This document shows, one piece after another, positions 2,694-51,981 of a stretch of 64,000 bases of DNA; the first letter of the stretch is position 1, and the number at the start of each line of letters is the position of its first letter. The notes under the pieces are model-generated. The model was given only the letters and a program-made list of their open reading frames with translations, made no database searches and was not told the origin of the DNA. Position numbers and translations under genes: made by a program. The stretch covers positions 3,458,001-3,522,000 of the forward strand of contig NZ_CP029552.1 of the NCBI RefSeq assembly GCF_003173775.1. Direction: 5' to 3'. This stretch comes from Methylobacterium sp. 17Sr1-1. Its GTDB lineage: Bacteria; Pseudomonadota; Alphaproteobacteria; Rhizobiales; Beijerinckiaceae.

Positions 2694-3623
2694 ATGATCG
2701 AAGCGGCGATGATCTGGAACGAGCCCAACAACAAGTCGCACTGGGATCCCGAGATCGATCCGGGGTGGTCGCTCTTCGCCGAGACCCTCGGCTGCGCCGC
2801 GCGGGCGGTGAAGGCGGAGGCGGCGCACCTGCCGACGGTGCTGGGCGGCATCTCGCCGATCGACCCGACCTTCATCCAGATGCTCGACGGGAGGGGCGCC
2901 CTCGACCACGTCGACGTGGTGGCGGTGCACGGCTTCCCCCTCGACTGGAACCTCTGGCAGATCAACGAGTGGCCGGCCAAGATCGCCGAGATCCGCGCGG
3001 TGACGGACAAGCCGATCTGGGTCACCGAGGTCGGCGTCTCCACCTTCGGGGCCGAGGAGGTCCAGGTCTTCGGGCTCGACCGCACCGCCGAATTGCTCGT
3101 CGGCCGGGCGCCGCGGATCCACTGGTACAGCCTCTACGACCTGCCGCAGGCCTGGGGCGCCACCACCCGGCACCGGGAGGCGGAGGGCTCCTCCTACTAC
3201 CGCCACTTCTATATGGGGCTGTTGCGCGAGGACGGCACGCCGAAGCCCGCCCTGGAGCACTTCGCCCGCCACACCCCGGCGCTGGGCCTGTGCCAGTGGT
3301 TCCACTACCAGGATCACCGCCTCGACGAGGCGGTGGCCTGGATGCGGCGGCTCGGGGTGACCTACTTGCGCACCGGCCTGTCCTGGGCCGATTCGTTCCG
3401 GCCGGATGCCCTCGACTGGTTCGACCGGCAGATGGAGGCCCTGGCGGAGTTCGACGTGACCGTGACCTTCTGCTTCACCCCCGAGCACCGGGGCATCGCC
3501 CCCCATCACACCAGCCCGCCGCAGGTGAAGGAGGAATTCGCCGAGTTCTGCGCCGCGATGGTCCGGCGCTATGCCGGGATGATCCGGCCCGGGCCGGCCC
3601 TCGGGCCGCAGCCGGCGATCTGA
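2694..3623 (+). CDS. Clan-A glycosidase-like protein (beta-xylosidase-like), apparently permuted
   Basis: A 309-residue protein without a signal peptide. The first half carries WNEPNN at residues 8-13 (candidate acid/base Glu10) and WVTEVGVSTFG at 109-119 (candidate nucleophile Glu112). The spacing of about 100 residues fits strands beta-4 and beta-7 of a GH39-like (beta/alpha)8 barrel. The second half, residues 200-296 (RRLGVTYLRTGLSWADSF, then FTPEHRG), looks like the strands that normally precede the NEP motif. So the barrel order appears rotated: beta-4 to beta-8 first, then beta-1 to beta-3. The start is fixed by the lack of any alternative after the upstream stop. Six nt separate it from the PIG-L gene, which suggests a shared role on a glycoconjugate. 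Substrate unknown. Confidence 0.7.
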   Translation: MIEAAMIWNEPNNKSHWDPEIDPGWSLFAETLGCAARAVKAEAAHLPTVLGGISPIDPTFIQMLDGRGALDHVDVVAVHGFPLDWNLWQINEWPAKIAEIRAVTDKPIWVTEVGVSTFGAEEVQVFGLDRTAELLVGRAPRIHWYSLYDLPQAWGATTRHREAEGSSYYRHFYMGLLREDGTPKPALEHFARHTPALGLCQWFHYQDHRLDEAVAWMRRLGVTYLRTGLSWADSFRPDALDWFDRQMEALAEFDVTVTFCFTPEHRGIAPHHTSPPQVKEEFAEFCAAMVRRYAGMIRPGPALGPQPAI

Positions 3624-38483: not shown

Positions 38484-38663
38484 CGGCGGCGGATCTCCGA
38501 GAGGGGGGGCCGCGCGCCGGCAGCCGCGTGTGTTCCTGATATGTCCCGAGGCGTGCCATGGTGCAACCGTGAGCCCGCGACCATTCGGAAACGAAGCTGC
38601 CGCGCTGGCGTCCCAATCCCCCGCGACAGCTTGGGCGCAACTCGCGTGAAGGAAGCGTGCCCG

Positions 38664-39230
38664 ATGTCCCGGTCCAGCCAGGGTTTTCACTACGACCGCG
38701 TCCAGCGCGGCTTCCACTGGCTGATGGCGGCCCTGATCGTGGCGGCGCTCGGGCTGGGCATCTACGCCGCCTGGCAGGTGCCCGGCACCTCGCCGCGGCG
38801 GGAACTCCTCGACATCCACAAGTCGCTCGGCCTGACGGTGCTGCTGCTCCTGCCGCTCCGCTTCGTCTACCGGCTCGTCGCCGGCGAGCCGGCCTACCGT
38901 GCGCCGCCGACCCGCAGCGCGCATCTCGCCGCGAGCCTGGCGCACCTGACCCTCTACGCCCTGATGCTGCTGCTGCCGATCAGCGGCTACGTCTACTCGG
39001 CGGCGGGCGGCTACGGCCTACCGTGGTTCGGGGTGTTCTCCTTCCCGCGCGTCGTCCCGGTCGACAAGGCGCTGTCGCAGGCGGGTTACGGCGCGCATTA
39101 CTGGATCGGCTGGGGTTTGGGCGTCGTGCTCGCCCTGCACCTGCTGGCGGTCGCCTGGCACGCCTGGATCCGCCGCGACGAGGTGATGGGGCGGATGTGG
39201 CCGCGGCGGGGGGCCAGGGCTTCCGCTTGA
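38664..39230 (+). CDS. Cytochrome b561 family protein
   Basis: A 188-residue inner-membrane di-haem cytochrome with four helices. His residues suited to haem ligation are in VQRGFHWLMAALIVAA (TM1), LLDIHKSLGLTVLLLL (TM2) and GLGVVLALHLLAVAWHAWIR (TM4). Such proteins pass electrons from ubiquinol to periplasmic acceptors or oxidise superoxide (CybB-like). In several genera the gene adjoins a catalase-like peroxidase; here the peroxidase is 12 kb away. The ATG at 38664 follows AAGGAAG. It is divergent from radA, with 180 bp between them. Confidence 0.9.
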   Translation: MSRSSQGFHYDRVQRGFHWLMAALIVAALGLGIYAAWQVPGTSPRRELLDIHKSLGLTVLLLLPLRFVYRLVAGEPAYRAPPTRSAHLAASLAHLTLYALMLLLPISGYVYSAAGGYGLPWFGVFSFPRVVPVDKALSQAGYGAHYWIGWGLGVVLALHLLAVAWHAWIRRDEVMGRMWPRRGARASA

Positions 39231-41415: not shown

Positions 41416-42516
41416 TCACATGATGGTTCTGGCGAAGCGCGCGAGCTCGGACGCCGCCGCCCCGAAGCGGCCGCGCAGGCCCGGCGCTCCCTGAGGGACC
41501 CGGTCGCCGAACTCGCCCCGGATCGCCCCGAGGATCTCCGCCACCTCGGCCTCCCGCCCGCTCTCGGGCCCGAGCCGCGCCAGCTCGTTCACCGCCCGGG
41601 GCGGCGGCGCGGCGACGCGGGTGCTCCAGTCGGTGCCCCAGACCCGGCGGGCGAGGGCGTCGTTGCGCCGGCGGTAGACCTCGTCGACCCGGGCGGTCAT
41701 CGCCGGGTCGAGGGCCCGGAACGGCTCGGCGTCGAGGCCGTACTCGTGCGCCAGGGCGTCGATGCGGGCGGTGACCGCCCGGGCGGGCGCCTGTGCGCCG
41801 CCGGCCCCGCCCGCCCGCAGGCGGCGCGACACCTCGACGCCGACGGGCCCGAGGCTCTCGTTGGTGCGGTAGGCGAGGTCGGCGGGCGTCAGGAGCGGCA
41901 GCAGGCGGTCGGCAAGGCCGAGCTCGACGGCGATGCGCTCGATCAGCGGGGCCGGGGAGTGCCGGTCCTGGACCGGCACGAGGTGCACGCGTCCCGCGGC
42001 TTCCCGCGCCCAGCCCTTCAGGCCGCGCCAGTAATCGAACCGGCGCGCCCGCAGCTCGGCCTCGAACGACGCCGCGAAGGCCCGGGCCTCGCGCAGGAAC
42101 TGGATCCGCCAGGTATATTGCGATTGCAGGTAGGCGGCTTGCGGGCGCACCGTCATCAGGATCTCGGGCCGGAAGCCCCGGCGCTCGAACAGGCCGCAGA
42201 GGAGCTTCGGCGCCCGGTGCCAGGGCGGCAGCAGGCACAGGCTCTCGTAGGAGAGAAGCGCGACCTCGTCCCGGCTCGCGGCCAGCGCCCGGTCGAGGGC
42301 GTCGATCAATTCGCCCCGCTCGCGCCGCGGCCGGCGCCCGTCCAGGGTCTCGCCGAGATGCTGGTGGCTGACATGCGGGTGGGCCGCCGAGGCCGGCGTC
42401 AGCGCGGGGTAGAGGATGCCCGCTCCGCGCAAGGAGTCCCGGCGGGTGTGCAGCAGCATCTGCAGCGACGAGGTGCCGGTGCGCGGGGTGCCGATATGGA
42501 TGATGGCGCGGCGCAT
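41416..42516 (-). CDS. Sulfotransferase-like P-loop protein
   Basis: A 366-residue protein. Residues 6-19 (IIHIGTPRTGTSSLQ) match the PAPS-binding P-loop of sulfotransferases. YESLCLLPPWH and MTVRPQAAYLQSQYTWRIQF fit the 3'-phosphate-binding region with an R-x(n)-S-Q-Y pattern seen in bacterial sulfotransferases of polysaccharide or lipid substrates. No signal peptide or membrane helix, so it is cytosolic. It may sulfate a sugar or lipid conjugate. It converges with the MFS gene and sits beside the glycosyltransferase cluster, separated by an outer-membrane-type protein gene. Some proteins of this type are kinases, so the reaction is not certain. Confidence 0.7.
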   Translation of the reverse strand: MRRAIIHIGTPRTGTSSLQMLLHTRRDSLRGAGILYPALTPASAAHPHVSHQHLGETLDGRRPRRERGELIDALDRALAASRDEVALLSYESLCLLPPWHRAPKLLCGLFERRGFRPEILMTVRPQAAYLQSQYTWRIQFLREARAFAASFEAELRARRFDYWRGLKGWAREAAGRVHLVPVQDRHSPAPLIERIAVELGLADRLLPLLTPADLAYRTNESLGPVGVEVSRRLRAGGAGGAQAPARAVTARIDALAHEYGLDAEPFRALDPAMTARVDEVYRRRNDALARRVWGTDWSTRVAAPPPRAVNELARLGPESGREAEVAEILGAIRGEFGDRVPQGAPGLRGRFGAAASELARFARTIM

Positions 42517-42955
42517 GGCGGTCCTCAGCGCCGGTCCCTGGGCGGGCCCGCTTGCGCGGAAGCGGTCGGGAATGCGCGGGGCATCGTCCGGTCAGGGATC
42601 ATGCGGATCTCCCATGCCTCGTGCCGGCGTCCCGGAGGGCACGGGGTCGCACCCTGCCGGCGCCGGCGGTCACGGCTCAAGCGGAGCCGTTCGATAGGCA
42701 GAACTGCAAGCCCGAACAGGGCGATTTTGCGGCATTCCGGCCCGGGCGCCGGGCAAAGCCCCGGTCCCGCGAGGCAAGATCCGACGGCAATAACCGTCGA
42801 GACGCGGATCATGCCGTTGAATTTGCCGGGAATTCGTTCTCGCGGACGCGGATCGACGTCGAGTTCGATTTATTTTTGGGTCTCGATGTTGCCGAATGCG
42901 TTCCGCTTCGATGCGGAATGTTGTGGCGCGTGACGGAAGGACGGTCGCGCCCGGC
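42517..42955. other. Intergenic region, no gene seen
   Basis: This 439-bp stretch between the sulfotransferase-like gene and the outer-membrane-type gene shows no convincing frame. Its last 130 bp are more AT-rich and include TTATTTTTGG, which could serve as the end of the outer-membrane-protein transcript if oriented with it. The remainder is GC-rich and without clear repeats. Confidence 0.4.
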
Positions 42956-43648
42956 TCAGCGCAGGCCGCCGCCGACCACGCCCGCCTCGACGGCGACCGA
43001 CAGGCGGTCGGTGATCGCCCACTCGACCCCGACATGCGCGTTCGGCAGGACCGCGATGTCGTCGCGCGAGAACGGCCCCGAGACCGGCGTCGCCCCGGCC
43101 CGGATCGTGCCGTGCACGGCCGCCGCGCCGCCGCGGGCGTAGAGCAGCACCTCCGGCGTCAGCAGCGCGCCGACCTTCACCTGCACCGAGCCGGCGAAGT
43201 CGCGGGTGTAGCTCAGGGCGCCGAAGCCCGGCGTCAGGCCGCCGGAGGTCGCCGCGAGATAGTCGAACCCGCCGGAGATGCCGTAGACGAAACGGCCCTC
43301 CTGCCAGAGCCGTCCGCCCTCGAAGCCGAGGGTCGGCCCGGCATAGCTGCCGAACCGCCGCGACGACACCGCCTCGAACCCGGTCGACATCCGGGCGTAG
43401 GAGCCGGACCAGCGGCTGTCGATGCCTGGTCCCTGCTCGAGGGCTTTCGGCCACGTGTTCTCGGGCCAAGCGAAGACGGGGAGGAAGCCGAAGCCGACGA
43501 GGCCCTGCGCCCGGCCGGGATCCGGCGCGAGGGCGGCGAGGCCGAGGGCGAGGCAGGCCGCGAGGCGGCGGCGAGCGCTGGCTGCGAAGCAGCGGCGGGA
43601 GCTGGCTGCGAAGCAGCGGCGGGAGCGGGAAGCGGCGCATCCGGTCAT
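42956..43648 (-). CDS. Outer-membrane beta-barrel-type protein
   Basis: A 230-residue exported protein with an extended, basic signal region (MTGCAASRSRRCFAASSRRC onward, hydrophobic core CLALGLAALAPDPGRAQ). The mature part alternates polar and aromatic residues in strands such as GFEGGRLWQEGRFVYGISGG and DYLAATSGGLTPGFGALSYT, like small eight-stranded barrels or surface antigens. It ends VAVEAGVVGGGLR without the usual terminal Phe. The signal N-region contains a perfect 24-bp tandem duplication. It is divergent from the glycosyltransferase operon. I do not recognise a named family. Confidence 0.65.
   Translation of the reverse strand: MTGCAASRSRRCFAASSRRCFAASARRRLAACLALGLAALAPDPGRAQGLVGFGFLPVFAWPENTWPKALEQGPGIDSRWSGSYARMSTGFEAVSSRRFGSYAGPTLGFEGGRLWQEGRFVYGISGGFDYLAATSGGLTPGFGALSYTRDFAGSVQVKVGALLTPEVLLYARGGAAAVHGTIRAGATPVSGPFSRDDIAVLPNAHVGVEWAITDRLSVAVEAGVVGGGLR
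43577..43624. repeat. Perfect 24-bp tandem duplication in a signal peptide
   Basis: The unit GCTGGCTGCGAAGCAGCGGC followed by GGGA occurs twice in a row (43577-43600 and 43601-43624). On the minus strand it repeats RRCFAAS with one extra residue, in the basic N-region of the outer-membrane-type protein's signal peptide. It is in frame and recent, since the copies are identical. Confidence 0.9.
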
Positions 43649-43898
43649 ACGGCCACGATAGCCGAGAGCCGGCCGCTCCGCATCGGGGTGCCTGGCGACG
43701 GTTTGTAACTGCAAACGTGACGGCAGATTCCCCGGGGCGTACCGGAACGGGGCGATCCGCCGCTCGTGACTCGATCGCGGGACGCAGACCGGATTTTCAG
43801 GGAGACGCGGTCGATTTGGTCGCACCCCAGAGACTGGGGTAGAGTATGACATATGTGAATCTCCCAAGGGCACGTTCGGCCCGCCGGAGACGCTGCGC

Positions 43899-45119
43899 GT
43901 GACCCATTCGGACAACCGGGACCGAACCCGGGGATTGGATTCCGGCGGCCCGCCCACGCCGCTTTGCATCGTCGCCGTGCCGGTCCGCAACGAGGTCGAC
44001 CGGATCGGCCCCTGCCTCCGCGCGCTGGCGGCGCAGGAGGGGATCGCGGCGGACGGCTTCGGGATCGTCCTCTTCCTGAACAACTGCACCGACGGCACGG
44101 CGGAGGCCGTCGCGACGCTCGTGCCCGACTTGGACGTGCAGGTGCGGGTGGTCGCGCGCGACTTCGCCGGGGCGCAGGCCGGATGGGCCCGGCGCGAGGC
44201 GATGGAAGCCGCCGCGGGCTGGTTGGAGGAAACCGGGTCCGACGGCGCGATCCTGACGACCGATGCCGACAGCCGGGTGCCGCCGGACTGGGTCGCCCGC
44301 AACCTCGCGGCCCTGGCGCAGGGCGCCGACGCGGTCGCCGGCACGGTGGCCCTCGACGCGGCCGAGGCCGCGCGCCTGCCGGACGCGCTCCACGCCCGCG
44401 GCCGCCGGGAGGGCGCCTACGAGGCGCTGCTCGTCGCCCTCGAATCGCTCATCGACCCGGTCGCGCACGACCCCTGGCCGCGGCACGCGACCCGCTCGGG
44501 GGCGAGCCTCGCGGTCCGCCTCCCGGCCTACCGCGCCGCCGGCGGCATGCCGGCCTTGGCCCTCGGCGAGGACCGGGCCTTCGTGGCGGCCCTGCTGCGG
44601 GCGGATGCCCGGGTGCGCCACGCCCCCGGCCTCGTCGTCGTCACCTCAGGGCGGCTCGACGGCCGCGCCCCGGGCGGCTGCGCCGACACGATGCGGCAGC
44701 GCTGCGCCGTGCCCGAGACCCCGTGCGACCCGCGCCTCGAACCCCTCACCCGCGCCCTGTTCCGCTACGCCTGGCGGCGCCGGCTGCGGTCCCTGCACGG
44801 GGCCGGGCGCCTCGCCCGGACCGGAGCCTGGGCGCCCTGGCTGCGCGTGCCGCCCGCCGAGGCGCGGCGGATCGCCGGTCTCCCGACCCTCGGGGCGGTC
44901 CTCGCGGCGGTCGAGGCGGCAAGCCCGCTCCTCGCCCCTCGGCCCCTGCGCCCCCGCGCGCTGCCCCGTCACATCCTCGCCGCCCGCCTCCTGCTCGCAG
45001 GGCTGCGGCGGGGCGGGCAAGGATGGCGGCGTCTCGTTGCGCCCAAGTCCGGCCGTGCCGAGGCGCTGGCATCCCTGCCCACCCTCGGCCGGGCGTCGGA
45101 GGAGGCCGGCAATGCGTGA
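43899..45119 (+). CDS. Family 2 glycosyltransferase
   Basis: A 406-residue cytosolic glycosyltransferase of the GT-A fold. Nucleotide-sugar binding motifs are VAVPVRNEVDRI, FLNNCTDGTAE and the DxD motif in LTTDADSRVPPDW (about residue 127); GEDRAFVAALL supplies the acceptor-side acid. The C-terminal 130 residues are Arg/Leu-rich without clear membrane helices. It starts at GTG 43899 behind GGAGAC. The end overlaps the acyl-CoA dehydrogenase-like gene by 8 nt, so the cluster is translationally coupled. It probably transfers a hexose or amino sugar to a small or lipid acceptor. An AT-rich promoter region lies upstream (near 43840). Confidence 0.85.
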   Translation: MTHSDNRDRTRGLDSGGPPTPLCIVAVPVRNEVDRIGPCLRALAAQEGIAADGFGIVLFLNNCTDGTAEAVATLVPDLDVQVRVVARDFAGAQAGWARREAMEAAAGWLEETGSDGAILTTDADSRVPPDWVARNLAALAQGADAVAGTVALDAAEAARLPDALHARGRREGAYEALLVALESLIDPVAHDPWPRHATRSGASLAVRLPAYRAAGGMPALALGEDRAFVAALLRADARVRHAPGLVVVTSGRLDGRAPGGCADTMRQRCAVPETPCDPRLEPLTRALFRYAWRRRLRSLHGAGRLARTGAWAPWLRVPPAEARRIAGLPTLGAVLAAVEAASPLLAPRPLRPRALPRHILAARLLLAGLRRGGQGWRRLVAPKSGRAEALASLPTLGRASEEAGNA

Positions 45120-46242
45120 TCCCTGGATCCTCCCCGGTTCGACCCGCGACTGCGTCGCCGCCGCCCGCCGGGTCTCGGCTCTCGCCGCCGCGCGGGCCGA
45201 CGCGCAGGACCACGACGACGGCTTCCCGGCCGAGGACACGGACGAGCTCGCTCACGAAGGCCTCCTCGCCGCCCCGGTGCCGGTGGAGGAGGGTGGGGCC
45301 GGCCTCGGGCAGGAGCCGGGCGCGGCCGACCTCGCCGAGGTGTTGCGCCTCGTCGGCCTCGGCAGCCTGGCGCTCGGCCGGGTCTACGAGGGCCACGTCA
45401 ACGCGCTCCAGCTCGTCGCCCGCTACGCCGCGCCGGCGGAGCGGCGCGCCCTGTTCGCCGACGCCCGCGCGGGGCACCTGTTCGGGGTGTGGAACACCGA
45501 GCCGCCGACGGCTGGCCTTACCCTGGGCGCGGGCGGGCGGCTCTCCGGGGTCAAGACCTTCGCCTCGGGTGCCGGCCGCGTCACCCGCGCCCTGGTGACG
45601 GCGCGCCGGCCCGGCGACGGGCGGCCGCTGATGCTCGTCGTCGCCCTCGAGCCCGGAACCCGGGCCGACCTCTCGGCCTGGCGCGCGCAGGGGATGCGCG
45701 CCTCGGCGACCGGTACCGTCGACCTCACCGGCCTCGCCCCGGAGGCGGTGCTCGGCGGGCCGGACGATTACCACCGCCAGCCGCACTTCTCCGGCGGCGC
45801 CTGGCGCTTCGCGGCGGTGCAGTTAGGGGGCATCGAGGCGGTGTTCGAGGCCTGGCGCGGCCACCTCGCCCGGACCGGGCGGGGCGACGATCCCCACCAG
45901 CTCGCCCGCCTCGGCGAGGGGGCGATCGCCCTCGAGGGCGCCCGGCTCTTCGTGTCCCGGGCGGCCGTCCTCGTCTCCGAGGAGGCGCTGGCCGTGGAGC
46001 GGGTCGTCGCCTTCGTCGATCTCACCCGGCTCGCGGTCGAGCGGGCGGGGCTGGAGGTGCTGGGCCTCGCCCAGCGCTCGGTCGGCCTCCAGGGTTTCTT
46101 GCGCGGCCATCCCCTTGAGCGGCTGTCGCGCGACCTCGCGACCTACCTGCGCCAGCCCGCCCCCGACCGGGCGCTGACCGGGGCCGCCGCCACGATCCTC
46201 GCCGCCGACGGGCCGGTCGCCGCGCTCTGGGAGCCACGGTGA
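45112..46242 (+). CDS. Acyl-CoA dehydrogenase-like flavoprotein
   Basis: A 376-residue protein with the three-part ACAD layout: an N-terminal helical domain (EGLLAAPVPVEEGGAGLG near residue 50), a middle beta domain (LSGVKTFASGAGRVTRALVT) and C-terminal helices (GLAQRSVGLQGFLRGHPLER). FAD-type residues look kept, but the usual catalytic Glu region is hard to place, so it may be an oxidase, an N-hydroxylase or a desaturase-type relative rather than a beta-oxidation enzyme. It sits between a glycosyltransferase and a PIG-L deacetylase with overlaps on both sides (8 nt and 1 nt), so its substrate is probably the glycosylated intermediate or its acyl chain. Confidence 0.78.
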   Translation: MRDPWILPGSTRDCVAAARRVSALAAARADAQDHDDGFPAEDTDELAHEGLLAAPVPVEEGGAGLGQEPGAADLAEVLRLVGLGSLALGRVYEGHVNALQLVARYAAPAERRALFADARAGHLFGVWNTEPPTAGLTLGAGGRLSGVKTFASGAGRVTRALVTARRPGDGRPLMLVVALEPGTRADLSAWRAQGMRASATGTVDLTGLAPEAVLGGPDDYHRQPHFSGGAWRFAAVQLGGIEAVFEAWRGHLARTGRGDDPHQLARLGEGAIALEGARLFVSRAAVLVSEEALAVERVVAFVDLTRLAVERAGLEVLGLAQRSVGLQGFLRGHPLERLSRDLATYLRQPAPDRALTGAAATILAADGPVAALWEPR

Positions 46243-46976
46243 TGCGGGCCGACGCCTTCCTCGCCGCCGCCGAGGCGCTGCCCGAGGGCTCCCTGCGCGA
46301 CCTCGTGCCGGCCGGCGGAATCGTGGTGGTGGCGCCCCATCCCGACGACGAGAGCCTCGGCTGCGGCGGGCTCATCGCCGAGGCCTGCCTCCGGCGAATC
46401 CCGGTCCGGCTCGTCGTGGTGAGTGACGGAGTCGGCTCGCACCCGAATTCGAGGACCCACCCGCCCGAGCGGCTGCGGGGTCTGCGCGAAGCCGAGACCC
46501 TGGCGGCGGCGGGATGCCTGGGCTTAGGCCCCGAGCACGTCGCCTTCCTGCGCCTGCCCGACCGGTTCGTGCCGCGTTCGGGCCCCGAGGCGGAGGCGGC
46601 GGCCCAGACGATCGCCGAGGCCGCCCGGGCCTGCGCGGCGGGCGCCCTGTTCGTGACCTGGGAGCACGATCCGCATTGCGACCACGCGGCGAGCGCGGCG
46701 CTCGCCCGCCGCGCGCGGGACCTCCTCGGAAACGTTTCCCTCCATGCCTACCCGGTCTGGGGCTGGACGCTGCCGCCGGAGACCGAGATCGACGGGGAGC
46801 CCCGGGGCGTCCGCCTCGTGGTCTCCCGGCATCTTCGCGCCAAGGCGGCGGCCATCGCCGCCCACCGCTCGCAGACCACCGACCTGATCGCCGACGATCC
46901 CGCCGGCTTCCGCCTGGAGCCGGCGATGCTCGCCCGCTTCGCGCGGGACCACGAGATCTTCCTCAACGTCGCCTGA
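46242..46976 (+). CDS. PIG-L family deacetylase
   Basis: A 244-residue zinc-dependent N-deacetylase. The motif APHPDDESLGCGG (about residues 31-43) and the WEHDPHCDH motif (about 141-149) give the metal-binding His, Asp and His. It starts at an ATG overlapping the upstream stop (GTGATG; a GTG at 46239 is an alternative). It is the third gene of the coupled cluster and is followed, after a repeat element, by a NodS-like methyltransferase. De-N-acetylation followed by N-methylation of an amino sugar is a coherent order for the two, though it is inferred from gene order only. Confidence 0.88.
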   Translation: MRADAFLAAAEALPEGSLRDLVPAGGIVVVAPHPDDESLGCGGLIAEACLRRIPVRLVVVSDGVGSHPNSRTHPPERLRGLREAETLAAAGCLGLGPEHVAFLRLPDRFVPRSGPEAEAAAQTIAEAARACAAGALFVTWEHDPHCDHAASAALARRARDLLGNVSLHAYPVWGWTLPPETEIDGEPRGVRLVVSRHLRAKAAAIAAHRSQTTDLIADDPAGFRLEPAMLARFARDHEIFLNVA

Positions 46977-47028
46977 AGCGCTTCACGATCGCGCCGCCAT
47001 CGCGAAGCTCTCTCAGTTTCTGACTTAG

Positions 47029-47076
47029 CCGCATTTTCTGCGACGAACCGGTATCCACTTCGTCGGACAATGCTCT
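47029..47076. repeat. Inverted copy of the 48-bp intergenic repeat
   Basis: Reverse complement of the element at 22496-22543, with a few changes; core CGAACCGGTATCCACTTCGT. It lies in the 115-bp gap between the PIG-L and methyltransferase genes and ends 5 nt before the AGGAGG ribosome site, so its insertion shaped the methyltransferase leader. Confidence 0.85.
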
Positions 47077-47080
47077 CGTG

Positions 47081-47094
47081 AGGAGGCCGCGCTG
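47081..47094 (+). promoter_or_regulatory. AGGAGG ribosome site with CTG start codon
   Basis: A perfect AGGAGG (47081-47086) is followed after 5 nt by CTG (47092-47094), which begins the conserved methyltransferase frame. The frame is open back to a TAG at 47026 and contains no ATG, GTG or TTG before the conserved region. This points to CTG initiation. Confidence 0.6.
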
Positions 47095-47730
47095 ACCCGC
47101 CACACGACCTCGCTGCCGCCGGGCTACTTCGACGAGCGCTACGCCGCCGATCCCGACCCGTGGAACTTCGAGACGAGCCCCTACGAGCGCGACAAGTACG
47201 ACGCCACCCTCGCGGCCCTGCCGCGCCCGCGTTACGCGGCGTGCCTCGAGATCGGCTGCTCGATCGGGGTGCTGACGGCGGCGCTCGCGCCCCGCTGTGA
47301 CACCCTCACCGGCCTCGACGTGGCCGAGGCCGCCCTGGACCAGGCCCGCGCCCGCTGCCGCGACCTCCCGGCGGTCCGCCTGATGCGGGCCCAGGTGCCG
47401 GGCGAGTGGCCGGAGGGCACCTTCGACCTGATCCTGCTCTCGGAGGTGGTCTACTACCTCGATGCCGGCGACGTCGCCCGCCTGGCGGCCCGGGTTCGCG
47501 GCAGCCTGCGTCCGGGCGGCGACGTCGTCCTGGTGCACTGGACCGGCGAGACGCATTATCCCCTGACCGGCGACGAGGCCGCCGACCTGTTCATCCGCGA
47601 GAGTCGCGAGACCCTCGCGGTCGACCGGCAGGTCCGTGCGCAGGCCTACCGGCTCGACGTGCTGCGCGCGCGCGGCGCCCGGCACGGGGGCATGATACGC
47701 CGTCCGCTTGATCCATTCCGATACGAGTGA
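47092..47730 (+). CDS. NodS-like SAM-dependent methyltransferase
   Basis: A 212-residue class I methyltransferase. The N-terminal LPPGYFDERYAADPDPWNFE and SPYERDKYDATLAALP are typical of the NodS-like family (Pfam NodS), followed by motif I LEIGCSIGVLTAALAPRC and LILLSEVVYYL. NodS proper N-methylates the deacetylated terminal glucosamine of Nod factors. The start is CTG at 47092 behind AGGAGG; the next in-frame GTG (47269) would remove motif I and inactivate the protein. It follows the PIG-L gene by 115 bp, with a repeat between them. The expected function is methylation of the product of the deacetylase; the acceptor is inferred. Confidence 0.8.
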   Translation: MTRHTTSLPPGYFDERYAADPDPWNFETSPYERDKYDATLAALPRPRYAACLEIGCSIGVLTAALAPRCDTLTGLDVAEAALDQARARCRDLPAVRLMRAQVPGEWPEGTFDLILLSEVVYYLDAGDVARLAARVRGSLRPGGDVVLVHWTGETHYPLTGDEAADLFIRESRETLAVDRQVRAQAYRLDVLRARGARHGGMIRRPLDPFRYE

Positions 47731-48198: not shown

Positions 48199-49962
48199 AT
48201 GACAGCCCTCCTGTCGGCCGAGCCGCGCCCCGTGCCGGTCCGCGCCGCCGTGCCGGCTCGCGCCGCCGCGCGCCCGGACGGGCCGGACCCCGCCGCGACC
48301 CGCCGTCTCGCCCGCGGCCTCGACGCCGTCCGGCACGGCTTCGTGCTGATCGACCCCGACGGCGGCGTCGCGGTCTGCACCGCGCCGGCCCGCGCACTGC
48401 TGGAACGGCTCGGCCTTCACGGCACGCCCAGCTTCCGGCGGCTGCTGCGCCTCGCTCGCGCCGGCTCCGGCCTGTCCGCGCGGGAGATCCTCGGGAGCCT
48501 CGGCGGCCGGTCCGTCCTCGACGTGGCGGTGGACGGCCACAGCGTCCAGGTCGAGATGCACGACGTCCCGGGCGAGGGCGTGGCCCTGGTGCTGGAGGAT
48601 GTCAGCCTGCGCCGGGCGGCGGAGAGCCGGGCCCACGACCTCGCCCGCCTCGACCCCCTCACCGGCCTGCCGAACCGCCTGCAGCTGCGCGAGCACCTCG
48701 ACGCGGCGCTGGCGCGCCTGGAGCGCAAGGCCGAGGGCTGCGCCGTCCTCCTCGTCGATCTCGACCGCTTCAAGCCGGTCAACGACACGCTCGGCCATCC
48801 GGTCGGCGACGCGCTGCTGCGCAAGGTGGCCGACCGGCTGCGCGCGATGGTGCGGGCCGGCGACACCGTCGCGCGGATCGGCGGCGACGAGTTCGTGGTG
48901 CTGCAGGCCGGCGTGACCGAGCCCGGCGAGGCCCAGGCGCTGGCGCGCCGCGTCGTCGACCTCGTCGGCCGCACCTACATGATCGAGGGCCAGCTGCTCT
49001 CGATCGGGGCGAGCGTCGGCGTCGCCCTGGCGCCGGCCGACGGGCGCGACGCCGACCGGCTTCTGAAGAACGCCGACCTCGCCCTCTACCGCGCCAAGCT
49101 CGACGGGCGGGGCACCTTCCGGTTCTTCGAGCCGGCGATGGACGCGCGCATGCAGGCGCGCCGGCGCCTCGAACTCGACATGCGCCAGGCCTTGGCCCGG
49201 CGTGAGTTCCAGCTCCACTACCAGCCGCAGCTCAACCTCGCCGACGAGCGGCTCGTCGGCTGCGAGGCGCTGATCCGCTGGCACCACCCGGAGCGCGGGC
49301 TGGTCTCGCCCGTCGACTTCATCCCGCTCGCCGAGGAGATCGGCCTGATCGTGCCGATCGGCGAGTGGGTGATCCGCCAGGCCTGCCGCGACGCCGCCGC
49401 CTGGCCGCAGCCCCTGACGGTGGCCGTCAACGTCTCGCCGGCGCAGTTCACGAGCGACCGCCTCGTCGAGACCATCGTGTCGGCCCTCGCCAATACCGGC
49501 CTGCCGGCGGCGCGGCTCGAGGTCGAGATCACCGAGGGCGTGCTCTTGCAGGACAACGAGAAGACCCTGCACACCCTCCACCGCCTGCGCGCCCTCGGGG
49601 TGCGGGTGTCGATGGACGATTTCGGGACCGGCTACTCGTCCCTGAGCTACCTGCGCGCCTTTCCGTTCGACAAGATCAAGATCGACCGCTCCTTCGTCGC
49701 CGGCCTATGCACCGGGACGGACCCCGGCACGAAGGCCGACGGCGAGGCGATCATCCGGGCGATCGCCGGGCTCGGCCGCAGCCTCGGCATGACCACGGTG
49801 GCGGAGGGCGTCGAGACGCCCGAGCAGCTGCGGCGCATCCGGGCCGAGGGCTGCACCGACGTCCAGGGCTACCTGATCAGCCGGCCGCTCACGGCCGACG
49901 CCCTCCTGAGCCTCCTCGCCGCCGCCGTTCCCGGAAGCCCGCCATGCCGGAGCCCGTCATGA
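48199..49962 (+). CDS. GGDEF-EAL bifunctional c-di-GMP enzyme
   Basis: A 587-residue soluble protein. A PAS-like N-terminus at about residues 30-140 (HGFVLIDPDGGVAVCT) is followed by GGDEF (about 150-310) and EAL (about 325-580). The GGDEF motif is intact (ARIGGDEFVVL), with an inhibitory-site RAGD five residues before it. The EAL domain keeps [36 protein letters not shown] and KIDRSFV. Both activities are therefore possible. Its stop overlaps the start of a BLUF gene (ATGA), which implies translational coupling and control by blue light. An AT-rich promoter-like stretch lies near 48135-48155. Confidence 0.92.
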   Translation: MTALLSAEPRPVPVRAAVPARAAARPDGPDPAATRRLARGLDAVRHGFVLIDPDGGVAVCTAPARALLERLGLHGTPSFRRLLRLARAGSGLSAREILGSLGGRSVLDVAVDGHSVQVEMHDVPGEGVALVLEDVSLRRAAESRAHDLARLDPLTGLPNRLQLREHLDAALARLERKAEGCAVLLVDLDRFKPVNDTLGHPVGDALLRKVADRLRAMVRAGDTVARIGGDEFVVLQAGVTEPGEAQALARRVVDLVGRTYMIEGQLLSIGASVGVALAPADGRDADRLLKNADLALYRAKLDGRGTFRFFEPAMDARMQARRRLELDMRQALARREFQLHYQPQLNLADERLVGCEALIRWHHPERGLVSPVDFIPLAEEIGLIVPIGEWVIRQACRDAAAWPQPLTVAVNVSPAQFTSDRLVETIVSALANTGLPAARLEVEITEGVLLQDNEKTLHTLHRLRALGVRVSMDDFGTGYSSLSYLRAFPFDKIKIDRSFVAGLCTGTDPGTKADGEAIIRAIAGLGRSLGMTTVAEGVETPEQLRRIRAEGCTDVQGYLISRPLTADALLSLLAAAVPGSPPCRSPS

Positions 49963-50771
49963 GTGACCTCTACCGCCTGGTCTATGCCAGCAAGAACCTG
50001 ATCCAGGGCCCGGACCACGAGGTCGCGGCGGCCATGCGCCAGATCCTCGACGCCTCGCAACGCAACAACCGCGCGGCCGGCGTCACCGGCGCCCTGATGT
50101 TCAACGGCGGCGCCTTCGCGCAGGTGCTGGAGGGGCCGCGGGCCGGCGTCGAGGAGACCTTCGAGCGCATCCAGCGCGACGAGCGCCACGGCGACGTCAC
50201 GGTGCTGCAATGCGGCCCGGCCGAAGCCCGCGGCTTCCCCGACTGGTCGATGGCCTTCGTCGGCCAGTCCGCCCGCGGCCAGGCCCTGTGGTGCGGGCTC
50301 GCCGCCGAGAGCGGCTTCGACCTCGCGCGCCTCGACGGCGACGGGGTGTTCGCGATGCTGCACGGCCTCGTGCTGGAGGAGGAGGGTGTTTCGATCACGG
50401 TCGCGCCCGCGCCGGTGCAGGCTCCGACCGGCCCTCGCGCGGTCGCCGCGCAGGCGCCGGCCGCGGCGCCGGTCCCGCCGGCGGCGCCCGCCCGTCCGCC
50501 TGAGGCGCCCCTGCCGGAGGCGGGGTCCGCGGCGCTCGCGGTGATCCGGACCGCGCTCGCCCGCGAGCGCGACCGGGCGCACGCCCTCTCGGCCGAGGTC
50601 GACGACCTCGCAGTCGCCCTCGCGTCTCACCGCGACGAACTCGCGTCCCTGCGCGCCGAGCGCGACCACTGGGCCGAGCGCGCCCGGGTGCTCGCCGGGA
50701 TGCTGTGCCGGGAGGTGGAGGAGGTGCGCCACGGGGAGGCAACCCTGGCGCCGCGGCGGGCGGTGGCGTGA
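49959..50771 (+). CDS. BLUF-domain blue-light sensor with coiled-coil C-terminus
   Basis: A 270-residue protein. The BLUF domain at residues 3-100 has the flavin-contacting Tyr9 (LVYASKN), Asn37 (QRNNRAAGVTG), Gln55 (FAQVLEG) and Trp96/Met98 (FPDWSMAFVG), so FAD photochemistry should be intact. A Pro/Ala linker (about 155-190) and a charged helix (RDRAHALSAEVDDLAVALAS and onward) follow, likely a coiled coil for partner binding. The ATG at 49959 overlaps the GGDEF-EAL stop and has GGAG 6 nt upstream; an ATG at 49944 is less likely. In related systems (BlrP1, YcgF) BLUF domains control EAL activity, here presumably in trans. Confidence 0.92.
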   Translation: MSDLYRLVYASKNLIQGPDHEVAAAMRQILDASQRNNRAAGVTGALMFNGGAFAQVLEGPRAGVEETFERIQRDERHGDVTVLQCGPAEARGFPDWSMAFVGQSARGQALWCGLAAESGFDLARLDGDGVFAMLHGLVLEEEGVSITVAPAPVQAPTGPRAVAAQAPAAAPVPPAAPARPPEAPLPEAGSAALAVIRTALARERDRAHALSAEVDDLAVALASHRDELASLRAERDHWAERARVLAGMLCREVEEVRHGEATLAPRRAVA

Positions 50772-51000: not shown

Positions 51001-51981
51001 TCAGTTCGAGCGCCGCGACAGCGACACCGCGTAGGCCGGGGAGCGGATCGCGAACATCGGGTCGTCGGCCGGGCCGGCGATGCCCTCGGGCAGGTCGACG
51101 ACCGGATCGAAGGTGGCGGCGTCGCAGGTCGCGTCGGGGGCGATCTCGGTGATCGCCAGGGTGCCGAGCGTCTTCGTCTTGCGCTGGTCCTCCGGCCAGG
51201 TCGCGGTCACGTCGGCGGTCGGGTCGCCCGGCTCGGCCAGGATCGCCACGAGGTCGAACTTCGCCGGGCCGCGGGTCAGCCGCTCCTTCAATTCGTCGGC
51301 GTAGAACGCGTCGGGCTTGGCCTTCAGCTCCTCGTCCGAGAGCGTCGCCTTGTCGGCGGCGACGAACTTGAGCTTGGCGGTCGTCTTGTCGCCCTTGGCG
51401 TTCGTCAGCGTGTAGGCGTGGACCGCCCAGTAATCGGTGCCCGCGAAGCTCGCCGGCACCGGTCGGGCGTTGAGCCATGCCGCCTGGCGGCCGGTCTCCG
51501 GGTTCTGGGCCGCGAAGGCCTTGATCTTCTCGGCATCCGGCTTGCCGTCCGGCCCCGGCACGCGGACCTTCAGGAACTCGAGGAGCTGGCCCGGGGTCTT
51601 GGTCGAGAAGACCGGGGCGGAGATGATCACGAAGGTCAGGTCGCCCGCCGGATCCGCCATCCGCATCGCGAAGCCGCGGGTGGTCGCCTTGGTCTTGTCC
51701 GAGATCTTCGGGTTGCCGCCGCCCATCGAGAAGCGGGCGGTGACCGGCACGGCCTTGTTGAACTGGGGCGCCTTCGACAGGCTCGCCGCGTCGGAGGCCG
51801 GCGTGAAGGTGCCCTTGAGGCAGACGCCCTTGGCGCCGCTCGCGCGCACGCCCTTGTGGTCGCCGCTGACGGCGAATTGCAGGGCGACGATGGCGGCGGG
51901 ATCGGCCTCCTCCGCGGCGGCAGGCGCGACGAGAGAGGCGAGCGCGGCAGCGCCGGCCAGAAGGGAGAGGGACCGGATCAT
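51001..51981 (-). CDS. Periplasmic catalase-like peroxidase
   Basis: A 326-residue exported protein with signal peptide MIRSLSLLAGAAALASLVAP. It has the mini-catalase core: the distal His in DHKGVRASGAKGVC, the strand FTPASDAASLSKAPQF, FSMGGGNPKISDKTKATTRG, and near the C-terminus RSPAYAVSLSRR, where Tyr should ligate haem. Such small catalase-related proteins (SrpA/catalase-peroxidase-like) lack the full catalase fold and act as periplasmic peroxidases with organic substrates, often fed by a cytochrome b561. The nearest b561 gene in this window is at 38664. Convergent with the BLUF gene. No promoter is evident upstream (51982-52090). Confidence 0.87.
   Translation of the reverse strand: MIRSLSLLAGAAALASLVAPAAAEEADPAAIVALQFAVSGDHKGVRASGAKGVCLKGTFTPASDAASLSKAPQFNKAVPVTARFSMGGGNPKISDKTKATTRGFAMRMADPAGDLTFVIISAPVFSTKTPGQLLEFLKVRVPGPDGKPDAEKIKAFAAQNPETGRQAAWLNARPVPASFAGTDYWAVHAYTLTNAKGDKTTAKLKFVAADKATLSDEELKAKPDAFYADELKERLTRGPAKFDLVAILAEPGDPTADVTATWPEDQRKTKTLGTLAITEIAPDATCDAATFDPVVDLPEGIAGPADDPMFAIRSPAYAVSLSRRSN

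Follow-up and report, generated by a model that had tools for sequence, protein, structure and literature searches.

A four-gene cluster of Methylobacterium shared among distant bacteria and its possible role in amino-sugar chemistry

Introduction

What does a bacterium make with a glycosyltransferase, a flavoprotein of the acyl-CoA dehydrogenase (ACAD) fold, a de-N-acetylase and a NodS-like methyltransferase encoded in one row? Such a row lies in a 64,000-nucleotide stretch of Methylobacterium sp. 17Sr1-1 (NZ_CP029552.1, positions 3,458,001 to 3,522,000; hereafter the window), part of a 6.54 Mb single-contig genome. A sequence-only reading had likened these enzymes, together with a neighbouring sulfotransferase-like gene, to those of lipochitooligosaccharide (Nod factor) synthesis and had suggested a signal of a plant-associated bacterium. 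Judged from sequence and gene order, the four-gene core is a real pathway, widely shared among distant bacteria. Our preferred reading, held with about as much confidence as doubt, is that it is a self-contained amino-sugar pathway of glycosylation, deacetylation, oxidation and methylation, whose product would probably be a stress protectant in several lineages.

Results

Every gene named by the sequence-only reading was present at its position, including the overlaps of the first three core genes and the methyltransferase behind them. The closest proteins bearing a name came from Methylobacterium. All four core genes are on the forward strand. The GT2 glycosyltransferase gene (43899-45119; PF00535, 2.6e-12) encodes a GT-A enzyme with D-x-D at residues 122-124 and E-D at 224-225. 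It overlaps by 8 bases the gene for an ACAD-fold, group-D monooxygenase-like flavoprotein (45112-46242; PF00441, 3.7e-06) that lacks the ACAD catalytic glutamate (Glu), and this in turn overlaps by 4 bases the gene for a PIG-L (LmbE-type) de-N-acetylase (46239-46976; PF02585, 3.2e-22, 79.8 bits against a cut-off of 28.2). The NodS-like S-adenosylmethionine methyltransferase gene (about 47092-47730; PF05401, NodS, 2.9e-17) follows some 115 bases further on. Pfam support is firm for the GT2, PIG-L and methyltransferase genes and weak for the ACAD domains, of which one in four, the C-terminal domain, scored above its cut-off. At 47029-47095 the methyltransferase reading frame has no ATG, GTG or TTG start; a CTG at 47092-47094, preceded by GAGGAG, is its likely start, and all ten relatives checked carry ATG or GTG at this point. 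The gap between the PIG-L and methyltransferase genes is longer than in the relatives checked.

A public-genome scan with the ACAD-fold protein returned at least 80 loci, the listed ones comprising 37 from Methylobacterium or Methylorubrum and 43 from other bacteria: 20 cyanobacteria, 16 Hymenobacter and single loci of Mucilaginibacter, Pyrinomonadaceae, Sphingomonas, Salinarimonas, Methylobrevis and one metagenome-assembled genome (MAG) each of Rhizobiales and Proteobacteria. Of these 43 loci, 41 carried PIG-L, 42 the methyltransferase, 36 GT2 and 34 all four genes no more than 2 kb from the ACAD-fold gene, bearing out the expectation that the four families recur together well beyond close strains. 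One of the two loci missing PIG-L (L034) is on a contig that ends inside the ACAD-fold gene, and the other (L047) has a PIG-L-family gene 2.1 kb away on the other strand. The 37 listed Methylobacterium loci were more often split (PIG-L 11, methyltransferase 20, GT2 11, all four 9). The flanks tested outside the core were unrelated between lineages, with MreC, MreB, AICARFT and Omp85 in Hymenobacter and varied genes in cyanobacteria.

The module is also found on plasmids, where tblastn placed the ACAD-fold protein in 47 records; 14 were examined first and two more afterwards. PIG-L was adjacent in 13 of the first 14 loci, and the methyltransferase and GT2 lay within 2 kb in 11 and 10, respectively. 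The ACAD-fold gene stood alone at one Methylobacterium plasmid locus (L096), was paired with PIG-L in Deinococcus radiodurans, with the methyltransferase 3.5 kb further, and had its methyltransferase elsewhere on the same plasmid in D. proteolyticus. Methyltransferase and PIG-L queries contributed five further records. The Acinetobacter, Kitasatospora and Rubrobacter records held the whole module or most of it, a Paraburkholderia record had the methyltransferase with a glycosyltransferase, and the stretch examined of Sinorhizobium meliloti pSymB contained a lone PIG-L relative only. The hosts thus include Hymenobacter, cyanobacteria, Deinococcus, Acinetobacter, Kitasatospora, marine roseobacters, Pseudomonas relatives and actinobacterial plasmids, and do not point to the plant signal first suggested.

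Co-occurrence was then assessed over whole genomes. The ACAD-fold protein was found in 11 of 199 Pseudomonadota genomes at E ≤ 1e-20, five of them Methylobacterium and the other six scattered. Among the ten carriers other than the window's genome, the methyltransferase was adjacent in every case and PIG-L in eight; genome-wide, PIG-L was present in all ten and GT2 in nine at E ≤ 1e-8, the tenth (G058) having a weaker GT2 match 1.2 kb from its ACAD-fold gene (L110). Among 41 Methylobacterium genomes, the ACAD-fold, PIG-L and methyltransferase genes were each present in the same 40, and all three were absent from the remaining one. Within these 40, the ACAD-fold gene adjoined PIG-L in 14 and the methyltransferase in 32, PIG-L adjoined the methyltransferase in 23, and each of the 40 had at least one adjacent pair. 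Mirror-tree comparisons gave Spearman coefficients of 0.59-0.87 over 561 pairs, values uncorrected for species relatedness. Because each possible pair is linked somewhere and the three genes are retained even when split, co-occurrence and linkage are good evidence that the three genes act together.

In some alphaproteobacteria, up to three further types of glycosyltransferase accompany the core. On Sphingobium and Novosphingobium plasmids and at L115, genes for a GT4, a GT2 (missing or incomplete at L115) and a GT-B enzyme precede the ACAD-PIG-L-methyltransferase block, which is followed by an additional type, GT2b. Two Methylobacterium genomes with a split module (L121 and L122) have GT4, GT2 and GT-B relatives near the separate PIG-L gene, with GT2b in L122 only. 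The window's own genome has GT4, GT-B and two GT2b relatives at about 5.473-5.480 Mb, 2 Mb from the module, and these distant enzymes may serve the same product. Near this second locus lies a gene that matches a Cas3-like C-terminal domain (L133, 3375-4196).

The additional glycosyltransferases in Sphingobium, Novosphingobium, L115 and other Methylobacterium loci would also suit a module that decorates an envelope glycan or glycolipid, such as a capsule, a lipopolysaccharide (LPS) side chain or a glycolipid head group, and has no direct part in stress metabolism. A UDP-galactopyranose mutase gene downstream of the module in Deinococcus AJ005 and barrel genes near six Methylobacterium loci also fit this alternative. 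Two points, both weak, stand against it: annotation of the 14 plasmid loci examined showed no flippase, polymerase or lipid-carrier enzyme, and the module occurs across Deinococcus, Actinomycetota and cyanobacteria, whose envelopes differ greatly. We consider it possible, though on the unlikely side.

We then turned to the flavoprotein. Its ACAD fold was recovered by both Pfam and structure comparison. A profile search gave DszC (7e-30) and then MsuC (8e-26) as the top matches, and the top Foldseek rows were group-D flavin monooxygenases; identity to group-D flavin monooxygenases and sugar nitrososynthases was 18-24%. In VIA-align the monooxygenases led by a small margin, true ACADs scoring close behind. 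In an alignment of five family members with an ACAD of this genome that Pfam supports, every member lacked Glu at both the AER-type and YEGT-type positions, which we take to be the usual sites of the catalytic Glu; the reference itself shows only the AER-type Glu. The protein is thus probably monooxygenase-like, nearest to the group-D flavin enzymes; the sequence-only reading had suggested that it could act on an acyl or amine part. A true dehydrogenase, or an enzyme working on an acyl chain in a glycolipid that the other three enzymes build, would agree with the fold, the C-terminal Pfam domain and the close structural scores, but the missing Glu at both base positions and the monooxygenases as nearest profile relatives make it very unlikely.

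The Deinococcus ACAD-fold proteins (L083 5543-7882, L088 5744-7987, L095 5717-8080) are extended at the N-terminus by several hundred residues (about 390), a part which gave no Pfam match in L083 and L095 and no PDB sequence match in L095. In one Methylobacterium (L125, 3857-6320), genes for a luciferase-like monooxygenase and a second ACAD-family protein directly precede the ACAD-fold gene.

The zinc-motif residues of PIG-L were invariant in 31 of 31 sequences. Its nearest NCBIfam model was BshB (E 2.3e-11), yet its scores fell below all the BshB/MshB equivalog cut-offs (43.8 against 182.5, 42.1 against 195.25 and 16.1 against 224.35 bits). The Rubrobacter plasmid (L120) provides a substitution: the gene order there is a carbohydrate esterase family 4 (CE4) polysaccharide deacetylase, the ACAD-fold protein, the methyltransferase, a Pyr_redox flavoprotein and GT2, and no PIG-L was annotated in the stretch. 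Because an unrelated, NodB-type deacetylase holds the place of PIG-L, the step would be de-N-acetylation of a sugar; although seen in one plasmid, this swap is the best supporting evidence in our analysis, and it leaves the earlier proposal of de-N-acetylation followed by NodS-like methylation plausible. On the same plasmid, the reductase-like gene fits a monooxygenase role for the ACAD-fold protein. In G198 a further PIG-L gene lies behind that of the methyltransferase (L112, 11808-12620).

The resemblance of PIG-L to BshB, with catalase and other oxidative-stress genes as neighbours, raises the alternative of a redox cofactor or thiol pathway like that of bacillithiol or mycothiol. The distance of PIG-L from the BshB cut-off, and the lack of any annotated cysteine-ligase-type gene in the module of the 14 plasmid loci examined, render this highly improbable.

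The D-x-D and E-D residues of GT2 were invariant in 23 of 23 sequences, and its predicted model (predicted local distance difference test, pLDDT, 84) has a GT-A fold nearest, among others, to 6p61, WrtF and the UDP-N-acetylglucosamine (UDP-GlcNAc) enzymes TarS and TarP, which do not fix its donor. GT2 may be a soluble, non-processive GT-A enzyme rather than the chain synthase that had been imagined; the seven NCBIfam families listed for it include no NodC model. The methyltransferase scored 78 bits against a cut-off of 300 for the NodS equivalog NF041650, and its nearest structure was 4isc, named in the PDB only as 'Methyltransferase', with NodS next.

The surroundings of the module suggested a physiological role. 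In Acinetobacter it lies between a catalase gene and otsA/otsB; at L111 it adjoins a GT20 trehalose-6-phosphate-synthase-type gene; and in G198 (L112) it stands behind a 4-alpha-glucanotransferase, three amylase-type genes, presumably treZ, treY and glgX, and DUF2934. G198 shares its family code with G058, for whose protein the source given is Pseudomonas sp. GCEP-101. Ku, LigD and DNA ligase genes adjoin the module in Bradyrhizobium, a LigD_N gene adjoins four Methylobacterium loci (Pfam-tested in two), and catalases are near it in Sulfitobacter, Sphingobium, Novosphingobium and Roseivivax. In a BLAST count with stress proteins, matches fell in 13 of the 19 plasmid loci, in 5 of the 6 on Pseudomonadota chromosomes and in 1 of the 42 remaining listed loci; these include self-matches that arise by construction at the loci that supplied queries (nine on plasmids, together with L047 and L112). 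With those loci excluded, stress genes adjoined 4 of 10 plasmid loci (L085, L090, L093, L135), 4 of the 5 on Pseudomonadota chromosomes (L111, L113-L115) and 0 of 41 listed loci outside Methylobacterium, a count with no random-window control behind it. The sole match in L135 was Crp/Fnr, a broad family. The stress-gene link is lineage-limited: such neighbours are frequent in Proteobacteria and on plasmids.

Regulation was approached through the EcfG promoter pattern GGAAC-N16-18-CGTT upstream of GT2 and ACAD-fold starts. At alphaproteobacterial starts it occurred in 3 of 85 on the sense strand and 1 of 85 on the antisense strand (random windows, 5 of 2320); a relaxed pattern gave 6 of 85, 1 and 23 of 2320, respectively. 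None of 73 non-alphaproteobacterial starts had the pattern, and none was found before GT2 in the window. The portion of a Sphingomonas melonis EcfG study available to us lists #3506-3509 as glycosyltransferase or exopolysaccharide genes of the regulon, reports reporter-confirmed EcfG dependence of the glycosyltransferase gene #3505, a putative indirect target, and lists no ACAD-like gene within #3505-3509; we cite these genes as a lead only (PMC6599016). In Acinetobacter Tol 5, according to the accessible part of PMC13130816, several acyl-CoA dehydrogenases decrease on drying, which may or may not include that of the module.

Two further genes of the window, both upstream of the core and on the reverse strand, were judged to be outside the module. 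The sulfotransferase-like gene (41416-42516; PF13469, E 0.056, 14.1 bits against a cut-off of 27) matched no Pfam or NCBIfam family above cut-off and no PDB relative at E ≤ 1. It had been proposed as part of the pathway, but lies near the core only in four close relatives (L003-L006) among the nine listed four-gene Methylobacterium loci. A tetratricopeptide-repeat (TPR) sulfotransferase beside the Komagataeibacter module had no BLAST match to it at E 1e-3. The outer-membrane barrel-like gene (42956 to about 43651, start uncertain; PF13505, 25 bits against a cut-off of 28.7) accompanied the module at only six of the listed loci (L003-L006, L008 and L015). Cytochrome b561 and catalase-family genes lie on either side of the region (38640-39230 and 51001-51981), and at other Methylobacterium loci a cytochrome b561 gene comes after the ACAD-fold gene or after the ACAD-fold-methyltransferase pair. 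Downstream of the module come genes for a GGDEF-EAL protein and, behind it, a BLUF blue-light sensor (48199-50771).

Discussion

We propose that GT2 would transfer an N-acetylhexosamine to an acceptor that is either small or an oligosaccharide; the sugar is probably GlcNAc and its donor UDP-GlcNAc. PIG-L would then strip the N-acetyl group. The ACAD-fold flavoprotein would oxidise the amino sugar in the manner of a group-D flavin monooxygenase, and the NodS-like enzyme would methylate it, most simply at the amine. In some alphaproteobacteria the GT4, GT-B and GT2b enzymes, whether their genes share the operon or lie elsewhere, could extend the product, which may be a soluble oligosaccharide or an envelope glycan and would probably protect several lineages against stress. 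We infer the donor, the acceptor, the order of steps and the sites of methylation and oxidation, as well as the stress role, which is likely in several lineages, if unproven. A bolder version, which we find doubtful, is that an N-oxidised, N-methylated amino-oligosaccharide, for instance a hydroxylamine or nitrone glycoside, forms a new class of oxidative-stress protectant that acts with catalase and trehalose in unrelated desiccation- and radiation-tolerant bacteria.

A word-based search of open PMC papers found no description of the cluster; papers using other names would be missed. The excerpts seen of two papers concerned other matters: a P. syringae LPS-core PIG-L in a different context (PMC8005017), and a subject unrelated to the cluster (PMC13118837). 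A four-gene unit common to cyanobacteria, Bacteroidota, Deinococcus, Actinomycetota and Proteobacteria thus seems to have been overlooked, perhaps because its genes bear generic or misleading names ('acyl-CoA dehydrogenase', 'nodulation S family protein'). Should the product be a stress protectant, drought- and radiation-tolerant bacteria would have a new compound beside trehalose and catalase, and a branch of the acyl-CoA dehydrogenase superfamily would be recast as sugar-modifying enzymes.

Four known systems offer comparisons. Like Nod factor synthesis (NodC, NodB, NodS, NodH), the module has a GT2-fold transfer, a de-N-acetylase and a NodS-like methyltransferase, but it differs in having PIG-L instead of CE4 in the window, an extra flavoprotein, an unlinked sulfotransferase and a seemingly non-processive GT2; the parallel drawn by the sequence-only reading extends to the kind of reaction in two or three steps, not to membership or to a signal role. 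A secreted, lipochitooligosaccharide-like signal from a plant-associated bacterium as the module's product would accord with these shared step types and with the Rubrobacter CE4 deacetylase, but its chance is close to negligible with the methyltransferase so far below the NodS cut-off, PIG-L in the window, the sulfotransferase unlinked and the hosts mostly not symbionts. In bacillithiol and mycothiol synthesis (BshA/BshB, MshA/MshB), glycosyl transfer is followed by PIG-L deacetylation of a GlcNAc glycoside. The module likewise pairs the two, but has GT2, a methyltransferase and a flavoprotein in place of GT4 and a cysteine ligase. With stress islands of the trehalose, catalase and non-homologous end-joining kind (otsAB, maltooligosyl-trehalose type, katE, Ku-LigD) it shares neighbourhoods in Acinetobacter, a Pseudomonas relative, Sphingomonadaceae, Bradyrhizobium, Sulfitobacter and Roseivivax, whereas no such genes were found beside the cyanobacterial or Hymenobacter copies. 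Finally, the flavoprotein has its fold and nearest sequences in common with the group-D monooxygenases and nitrososynthases (DszC, TdsC, MsuC, KijD3, DnmZ). Unlike them, its family has conserved EGH and YLRQP motifs of its own, and a reductase-like neighbour occurs only at the Rubrobacter copy. KijD3 was solved, according to its PDB title, with an amino-sugar nucleotide. DnmZ acts on an amino sugar.

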